Source: a virus. From it: a stretch of 30,222 bases of DNA. The translations under genes were made by a program, and so were the position numbers. Shown piece after piece: positions 986 through 7,595 of the stretch (positions are counted from its first letter, which is position 1; every line of letters starts with the position of its first letter). The notes beneath the pieces were generated by a model. It worked only from the letters and a program-made list of their open reading frames with translations, was not told the DNA's origin and ran no database searches. Where the stretch lies: positions 1 to 30,222 of IMG/VR virus record IMGVR_UViG_3300023178_000186; one strand, written 5' to 3'.

Positions 986-1101
986 TTAAGTTTAGAAAAT
1001 CTAATTGTCGTGGCCTTCCTTGGAATACGAATCGAGACGAAGTATATCAGAGTCTTTATGTTGAAAATACTTCAGGATCTTTAAAGCCCTTAACGAAGTG
1101 A
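982..1101 (+). CDS. Hypothetical small protein, 39 aa
   Basis: Begins at an ATG overlapping the stop of the preceding gene by four bases, with GGGAGAGG upstream. The basic product (MIKFRKSNCRGLPWNTNRDE...) has no known motif. Its last codons and stop lie inside a 13-bp perfect hairpin (1079-1114), with the TGA in the loop, so ribosomes ending here would disturb that hairpin. The reading frame is short and could be chance, but the start coupling argues for translation. Confidence 0.45.
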   Translation: MIKFRKSNCRGLPWNTNRDEVYQSLYVENTSGSLKPLTK

Positions 1102-1114
1102 AAGGGCTTTAAAG
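1079..1114 (+). other. 13-bp perfect hairpin at a gene end
   Basis: CTTTAAAGCCCTT (1079-1091) pairs perfectly with AAGGGCTTTAAAG (1102-1114) around a 10-base loop that contains the TGA of the 39-aa gene. No U tract follows, so it is not a standard intrinsic terminator. It could protect a 3' end, act as a processing site, or be the first element of the structured region that follows. Confidence 0.65.
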
Positions 1115-1396
1115 CTCCTTCCGTATTAAGCGGTGGCTGGTCGCCGTGTGGTACAGGACTGTCATCCTGATGAAGTAATCAGCGGATAATATTACAGATC
1201 CTGAACTTTATCAGGCGGCTTAGTATTAGGGTGCTAAGTTGACATATTAAAATGGGATGTGACAGCATCCTAGCCCTAAATAAAAGCAGAGCAGGAAAGT
1301 GAAAACAGTAGCTTGGCCTGTAGCAAGGGTTAATAACCTTGCGAATAGGTTAGCCAGCCCCTATCTAACCCAATGCTGGCATCCTTAAACCTAGCG
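1115..1396 (+). ncRNA. Candidate structured RNA or long 5' leader
   Basis: No credible reading frame occupies this stretch, the longest gap in the window. Local inverted repeats follow each other: 1131-1135/1142-1146, 1154-1158/1165-1169, 1175-1179/1191-1195, 1200-1204/1211-1215, 1219-1223/1234-1238, 1255-1259/1266-1270, 1323-1328/1337-1342, and 1348-1353/1365-1370 interleaved with 1354-1358/1375-1379. A longer pairing, TTAGGG (1226-1231) with CCCTAA (1274-1279), encloses one hairpin. It matches no RNA family I can name (not tRNA, tmRNA, RNase P RNA or a group I intron core). It could be a free RNA, a leader controlling the gene at 1407, or DNA structure tied to replication. Confidence 0.5.
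1348..1380 (+). other. Interleaved stems: possible pseudoknot
   Basis: GGTTAG (1348-1353) pairs with CTAACC (1365-1370), and CCAGC (1354-1358) pairs with GCTGG (1375-1379). The two stems interleave, so they form either an H-type pseudoknot or mutually exclusive hairpins. ATAGG (1345-1349) with CCTAT (1360-1364) is a third competing option. The element ends about 16 bases before the GGAG of the gene at 1407, a position where it could affect translation. Confidence 0.45.
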
Positions 1397-1406
1397 GAGA
1401 AATATT

Positions 1407-3949: not shown

Positions 3950-4162
3950 ATGGCATATTATATTGCACCACATAAAACATTCGGCGGCGTCAGGTGCTGG
4001 CGTGTTGTCAAAAGATTACGAGACTTCAAGCCCGAAGAAGGTCAAGAGTATATGGTAAAAACAAATAAGCGACAGCTTGAGATGGGGGATTCTTTGCCGA
4101 TCTACATCGGTTTAAATGGTAAGCTACAAAAGTGTAGTAGCTTTGCTGTGTTTTTATTCTAG
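3950..4162 (+). CDS. Hypothetical small basic protein, 70 aa
   Basis: ATG at 3950 comes one base after the preceding stop with GAGGAAAG as ribosome-binding site. The protein is basic in its first half (VRCWRVVKRLRDFK) and ends in a hydrophobic run (CSSFAVFLF). No family recognised. Tight spacing to both neighbours supports operon membership. Confidence 0.6.
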   Translation: MAYYIAPHKTFGGVRCWRVVKRLRDFKPEEGQEYMVKTNKRQLEMGDSLPIYIGLNGKLQKCSSFAVFLF

Positions 4163-7365: not shown

Positions 7366-7595
7366 AAATCATTGAAGGTAATTTCGGAGAGAACGCGCCA
7401 AAGGGTAAAGGAAAAATAAATAAAGCAGTTAAAAAACTTGAGGCTAATGGCCTGAGTATAGACGACTCTGAGTTTGTTTTGATTGTAGACTTTGGTGGAG
7501 AGTTAAAGGTTGCTTCTGATTTAGATATAGAAAAACTTACATTTGTATTAGAAGTAATAAAGTATAGCGTTCTAACAGGGAGCTATGAAATCTAA
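7362..7595 (+). CDS. Hypothetical protein, 77 aa, TTG start
   Basis: TTG 7362 overlaps the preceding TGA and is served by an unusually strong Shine-Dalgarno (GGAGGTGATC). The N-terminal part is basic (GKGKINKAVKKLEANGL), the remainder mixed strand/helix (SEFVLIVDFGGELKVASDL). No family recognised. It ends in TAATG with the next start. Confidence 0.65.
   Translation: MKIIEGNFGENAPKGKGKINKAVKKLEANGLSIDDSEFVLIVDFGGELKVASDLDIEKLTFVLEVIKYSVLTGSYEI

Follow-up and report, generated by a model that had tools for sequence, protein, structure and literature searches.

The window analysed here, meaning the whole stretch of 30,222 nucleotides, is a virus record whose DNA polymerase has its nearest counterparts (about 50% identity) in Pelagibacter phages of the HTVC103P/115P kind and whose primase-helicase is of the T7-like type (phrog_239); its source is an uncultured aquatic virus of bacteria. 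When open reading frames of at least 40 amino acids on the coding strands are considered over the whole 30-kb window, the longest gene-free stretch covers positions 1102–1406 (305 nt) and the next one measures 118 nt, so that the sole long gap reported in an earlier note on this DNA is indeed there. It is followed by a plus-strand gene (1407–1787) for an acidic protein of 126 amino acids without known family, with a predicted C-terminal coiled coil and a structure model of low confidence (pLDDT 66.8). The gene on the 5′ side (982–1101) carries an in-frame deletion of 41 codons with respect to L003 and L008 (39 vs. 80 amino acids); the deleted part is Cys-rich and lies between two copies of TTGTCGTGG.

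The dense folding that had been attributed to the segment 1079–1396 is also borne out, the entire segment reaching −117.9 kcal/mol vs. −91.9 (sd 5.6) for shuffled sequences (z −4.66; 0 of 100 shuffles). By part, the z-scores are −5.67 (1066–1127), −3.15 (1128–1288), and −2.31 (1289–1381, nested folding only). Comparison with related contigs drawn from IMG/VR reveals that what had been read as one segment consists of three modules of differing histories, the conserved RNA unit lying only at about 1289–1381. Free length variation in relatives, which had been named as an argument against a functional RNA, affects 1128–1288 and hence only part of the segment: this block is missing from L005, L006, L007, L012, L057, L066, and L067. 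The first four of these, in which a nearby protein is 87% identical, keep the 5′ hairpin and the 3′ end and lack approximately 150 nt between them.

The 5′ module (1066–1127, plus strand) is a long hairpin whose previously described 13-bp perfect core is exact, 1079–1091 pairing with 1102–1114. It belongs to a family of hairpins dispersed over intergenic sites of this phage group, with the invariant core UUUAAA[A/G]CCC...GGG[U/C]UUUAAA, 21 sequence variants among the fetched loci, and up to 4 copies per 11-kb locus. The family covaries, with 98.6% of cells paired and 4 pairs changed on both sides, the latter count taken alone falling within that of the shuffles (78 of 500). Intergenic hairpins of at least 20 bp with the invariant UUUAAA[A/G]CCC core, several per phage, were seen in L013, L018, L025 (for example at 1411–1469, 2301–2357, 2710–2760, and 4088–4148), and L004, where they alternate with ordinary terminators. 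Three near relatives (L031, L009, and L011) possess the 5′ hairpin and lack the RNA element of the 3′ module; L031 also lacks the acidic-protein gene. No U run follows either 1066–1127 or 1289–1381, and a consensus scan of positions 1–2600 listed no terminator-like site on the plus strand. The RNase III sites of T7 are processing hairpins; long intergenic duplexes without a U tail resemble such hairpins, and we infer from this likeness that they may be processing sites of RNase III type. The hairpin 1066–1127 would probably be a separate upstream processing or insulating hairpin.

The middle module (1128–1288, plus strand) is a strain-specific structured block, identical only in L003/L064 and L008/L075. 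Scanning for its relatives returned chance matches only, and the block is hence without covariation support. The TTAGGG and CCCTAA sequences pointed out in the earlier note are both present, at 1226 and 1274, and can pair with each other as RNA inside the block. Two hairpin loops, CUGUCA (1159–1164) and UGACAG (1260–1265), are perfectly complementary over 6 nt, a comparable loop pair being found in 5 of 1000 shuffles, and could possibly act as kissing loops. A hammerhead-like CUGAUGA (around 1167) was discarded, the conserved GAAA partner and an Rfam match both being absent, as was an integron attC site, for which the full-length imperfect palindrome is absent.

The conserved RNA element itself (1289–1381, plus strand, 93 nt) was found in 11 distinct sequences, with one copy per contig. 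Their alignment (A4), built with MAFFT without structure information, fits a fold of 26 pairs made of two hairpins, P1 (9 bp with an A/GG internal loop) and P2 (6 bp), and an H-type pseudoknot with stems S1 (5 bp) and S2 (6 bp) and loops L1 (3–4 nt), L2 (1 nt), and L3 (10 nt). P1 (1291–1321) is formed by GCAGG-A-AAGU and GCUU-GG-CCUGU with the conserved loop GAAAACAGUA, and P2 (1323–1342) by GCAAGG and CCUUGC with the conserved loop GUUAAYAA. Within the pseudoknot, S1 (1345–1364) joins RUAGG (1345–1349) to CCUAY (1360–1364), its outer pair being A-U, G-C, or G-U, whereas S2 (1353–1380) joins GCCAGC (1353–1358) to GCUGGC (1375–1380); L1 is UUA (1350–1352), L2 a single C (1359), and L3 CUAACCCAAU (1365–1374). 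These are the interleaved 3′ stems remarked upon before, GCCAGC/GCTGGC crossing ATAGG/CCTAT in the DNA of the window, and covariation backs both.

Standard pairs occupy 249 of the 250 cells when the alignment is read as plus-strand RNA (99.6%, vs. 90.8% if the other strand were transcribed); since the G-U pairs fit only a plus-strand transcript, the fold is specific to that RNA. S2 is paired in 100% of cases and the single mismatch of S1 is in L004. Both sides have changed in 9 of the 26 pairs (four of nine in P1, two of six in P2, one in S1, and two of six in S2), so that the covarying base pairs sought in relatives are present for 1289–1381, as judged on 11 sequences with few independent substitutions. 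None of 500 shuffles matches the observed pairing percentage, covariation score, or count of pairs changed on both sides; sliding the partners lowers pairing to 25–43%, and RNAalifold recovers P1, P2, and S2 unaided. Variation is less frequent in unpaired columns (8 of 41) than in paired ones (18 of 52), some of this invariance being ascertainment, as the scan patterns fixed parts of the sequence; the variation in S2, P1, and P2 came from patterns that left those stems free. Reduced forms also exist. Because L007 lacks P2, and L066 and L004 keep the pseudoknot alone, the pseudoknot is the minimum that is retained, and no other part of the element ever lies nearer the start codon. The sequences GGUU (1348–1351) and UAACC (1366–1370), in columns 61–65 and 80–84 of A4, are invariant in 11 of 11 sequences; to judge from their complementarity they could pair with each other to the exclusion of S1, as a possible conformational switch. 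As to other identities, ARAGORN predicts 0 tRNA or tmRNA genes and an Rfam match to either is absent. The likeness of the P2 loop UUAAUAA to tmRNA was abandoned: L061, L072, and L100 read UAACAA and so do without the second stop codon, and a reading frame running through P1 meets a UAG in L057, L082, and L100.

The element occurs in at least five gene settings. Its carriers are the window group, L057, L066, L067/L069, L005–L007/L012, L004/L062, L058, L061/L063, L100, L072/L073/L074/L076/L081, and L082, and six exact-pattern scans aimed at different segments kept returning this same set. The P1 pattern was also matched in L077–L080 and L109, where the remainder of the element is absent, and the same applies to L068 and to most extra matches of one pattern scan. 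No match to Rfam 15 was obtained at the gathering threshold for the whole window, in agreement with the earlier view that the RNA, here 1289–1381, fits no known class, and with permissive settings the window segment, L100, and L072 yielded no Rfam matches or only chance-level ones. The element was not matched in INPHARED phages or PLSDB plasmids; when 84,980 bacterial and archaeal genomes were scanned with a pattern, all 16 matches were due to chance, and at the DNA level 399 + 396 genomes from two phyla yielded two short matches attributable to chance. No published description of the element was found in the open-licence literature. The element 1289–1381 constitutes a new RNA family within a broad kind already known, that of phage cis-regulatory pseudoknot RNAs.

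By blastn, L072 and L082 share with the window only positions 1287/1290–1381, at 88.5% and 91.3%, and no other DNA. L082 encodes a DnaB-type helicase and a NifU-like gene, whereas the window and L061 encode a T7-type primase-helicase; the carriers are therefore of at least two unlike kinds. The P1 variant AAG/CUU is common to the window and L058/L061, the variant GAC/GUC to L007 and the L072 group, and the variant UAG/CUA with CUGG/CCAG to L057, L067, and L082. Identity to the window element is 95% for the copy of L058 and 89% for that of L067, the nearer phage relative. The stem variants thus cut across phage kinship, which argues for horizontal exchange of the element, the transfer of a unit of approximately 93–97 nt appearing to be the best account of the variant pattern. 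The upstream gene of L082, L100, and L004 has its stop codon within the element.

On its 3′ side the element is followed by an unstructured linker (1382–1406, plus strand) that includes CUUAAA (1384–1389) and the Shine-Dalgarno (SD) sequence GGAG (1396–1399). A start codon with an SD site stands shortly 3′ of the element in the window group, L057, L058, L061, L066, L067, L004, L082, and L100, the distance from the end of the pseudoknot to the SD site being about 7–25 nt (15 in the window). Linkers across the family are enriched in YTAA, with 14 occurrences in 113 nt vs. 2.7 in shuffles and a density of 12.4 per 100 nt vs. 1.5 in 171 further SD leaders from these phages, an effect that is large, counted post hoc on a motif spotted first, and drawn from seven largely independent linkers; that of L100 is without the motif. 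The products encoded downstream match no family and vary from setting to setting, none of the at least five settings having a recognised metabolic product. A distant relative (19–20% identity) of the protein downstream in the window follows the same RNA in L058 and L061, and a related phage (L029) keeps the downstream gene without the RNA element.

This arrangement recalls the gene 32 operator of phage T4, in which a pseudoknot is followed by UUAAA/UAAA repeats and then by the ribosome binding site, gp32 nucleating at the pseudoknot and the repeats carrying its cooperative spread (PMC535899, PMC3014915); according to a 2010 review, this pseudoknot may be the sole viral example used for translational autoregulation (PMC3014915). 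As in the operators of T4 and RB69, the element would place a pseudoknot, unstructured repeats of the UUAAA/UAAA type, and an SD site in this order in a phage mRNA. The pseudoknot has covarying stems S1 and S2 and ends 15 nt 5′ of the SD site in the window, and the YTAA densities given above, with their post hoc character, provide the counterpart of the repeats. On the other hand, the gene downstream here does not encode a single-strand binding protein, the element is attached to several unrelated genes, and the T4 operator as described is without the two-hairpin P1–P2 module (PMC535899, PMC3014915). We thus retain the gene 32 operator as a working likeness for a candidate leader and not as a family to which it would belong.

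From its position and from this analogy, the element 1289–1381, a structured RNA that phages have exchanged, most likely serves in cis as a leader for translational control, a proposal to which we would give an even chance. The transcript folds into P1, P2, and the H-type pseudoknot, as covariation shows, with the pseudoknot joined to the SD site by the UUAA/CUAA-rich linker that is observed. The pseudoknot may be the docking site of an RNA-binding partner from host or phage, and the docked partner would spread along the linker, or be handed to it, and in this way govern the access of ribosomes, like gp32 on the mRNA of T4 gene 32. Since the downstream genes differ, this putative partner must act in trans, and since the loops stay the same in carriers whose replication genes differ, a host factor would be the simplest candidate. 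The options of the earlier note, an RNA, a leader, or a replication element, are thereby narrowed: RNA and leader are both favoured for 1289–1381 by covariation, plus-strand specificity, and the SD site on the 3′ side, and nothing speaks for a replication element. The L072 group does not fit a leader. There, a complex terminator-like hairpin with a U run (L072:7293–7354, identified by eye; the consensus scan listed none there) lies directly 5′ of the element and a strong sigma70-type promoter (11 of 12 matches) stands 3′ of it at 7498, so that in this group the element is no simple leader.

Translation could also be served in a more general way, if the pseudoknot and the single-stranded linker recruited the 30S subunit or ribosomal protein S1 as a translation enhancer or ribosome standby site, raising translation of any gene that follows without a repressor. 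An A/U-rich single-stranded linker does adjoin the pseudoknot before the SD site, and such a role would account both for the unrelated downstream genes and for one conserved partner across unlike phages. In the tisB leader of E. coli, a pseudoknot and a single-stranded region likewise serve translation initiation and the pseudoknot is essential for standby translation; there the ribosome binding site is sequestered and the standby site located about 100 nt upstream, whereas here the SD site is near and appears free (PMC7708055). Since no sequestration of the SD site is predicted, there is no obvious need for a standby site. Moreover, the loops of P1 and P2 are conserved beyond what a generic ribosome site should need and the L072 group fits this role no better, with its terminator-like hairpin 5′ and promoter 3′, and we therefore consider it rather unlikely. 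The L072 copy, lying between terminator-like hairpin and promoter, keeps alive instead the idea of a stand-alone noncoding RNA that acts in trans, for example as a decoy for a host RNA-binding protein, and is maintained in any transcribed intergenic slot. A single copy per contig, very conserved loops, and neighbours that differ between phages are compatible with it, but outside the L072 group the element is found directly 5′ of an SD site with the enriched linker motif, the consensus scan of the window reveals no evident promoter or terminator of its own, and the pseudoknot-only copies (L004, L066) still precede genes. A trans-acting RNA is accordingly unlikely in our view.

The sharp boundaries, the P1 variants crossing phage kinship, with a window copy nearer to L058 than to L067, and the overlap with the 3′ ends of upstream genes (L004, L082, L100) would also be expected of a cassette that is mainly selfish or spread by recombination, whose benefit lies in its own propagation and for which a leader role is secondary. 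The mobile regulatory cassettes of T4-type phages, reportedly described by Arbiol in 2010, are said to be small regulatory sequences that move between intergenic sites and consist of early promoters with stem-loops. The element resembles them in moving between phage intergenic sites and differs in being a covarying RNA, promoterless, and common to phages of different kinds. Only one copy is present per genome, terminal repeats, target duplication, and an encoded recombinase were not seen, and the compensatory changes show that a folded RNA is under selection, which makes a mainly selfish cassette quite improbable. Least probable is a riboswitch whose conserved loops bind a small molecule and whose pseudoknot gates the ribosome binding site: size, conserved loops, a compact H-type pseudoknot before the SD site as in the SAM/SAH, SAM-V, and preQ1 translational riboswitches, and an alternative GGUU/UAACC pairing exclusive with S1 would suit it, but the downstream genes share no metabolic function, no Rfam riboswitch is matched, the P1–P2 module is additional, and the element is restricted to phage contigs and absent from the bacterial genomes searched, the usual place of metabolite riboswitches.

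Returning to the cis-acting leader, a fuller form of the proposal, which we advance tentatively and at somewhat less than even confidence, is that of an uncatalogued RNA family spread horizontally among phages that differ in their replication genes, a plug-in control leader which a host factor common to them would read and which could place unrelated phage genes under the same translational switch. The element is a small, well-bounded, and clearly covarying addition to the short list of phage RNAs whose pseudoknot fold is conserved, its carriers being phages without a cultured model, and as a unit of 93 nt with sharp edges it is directly amenable to testing. A second, portable design of a gene 32-like operator would show that such operators move between phages.
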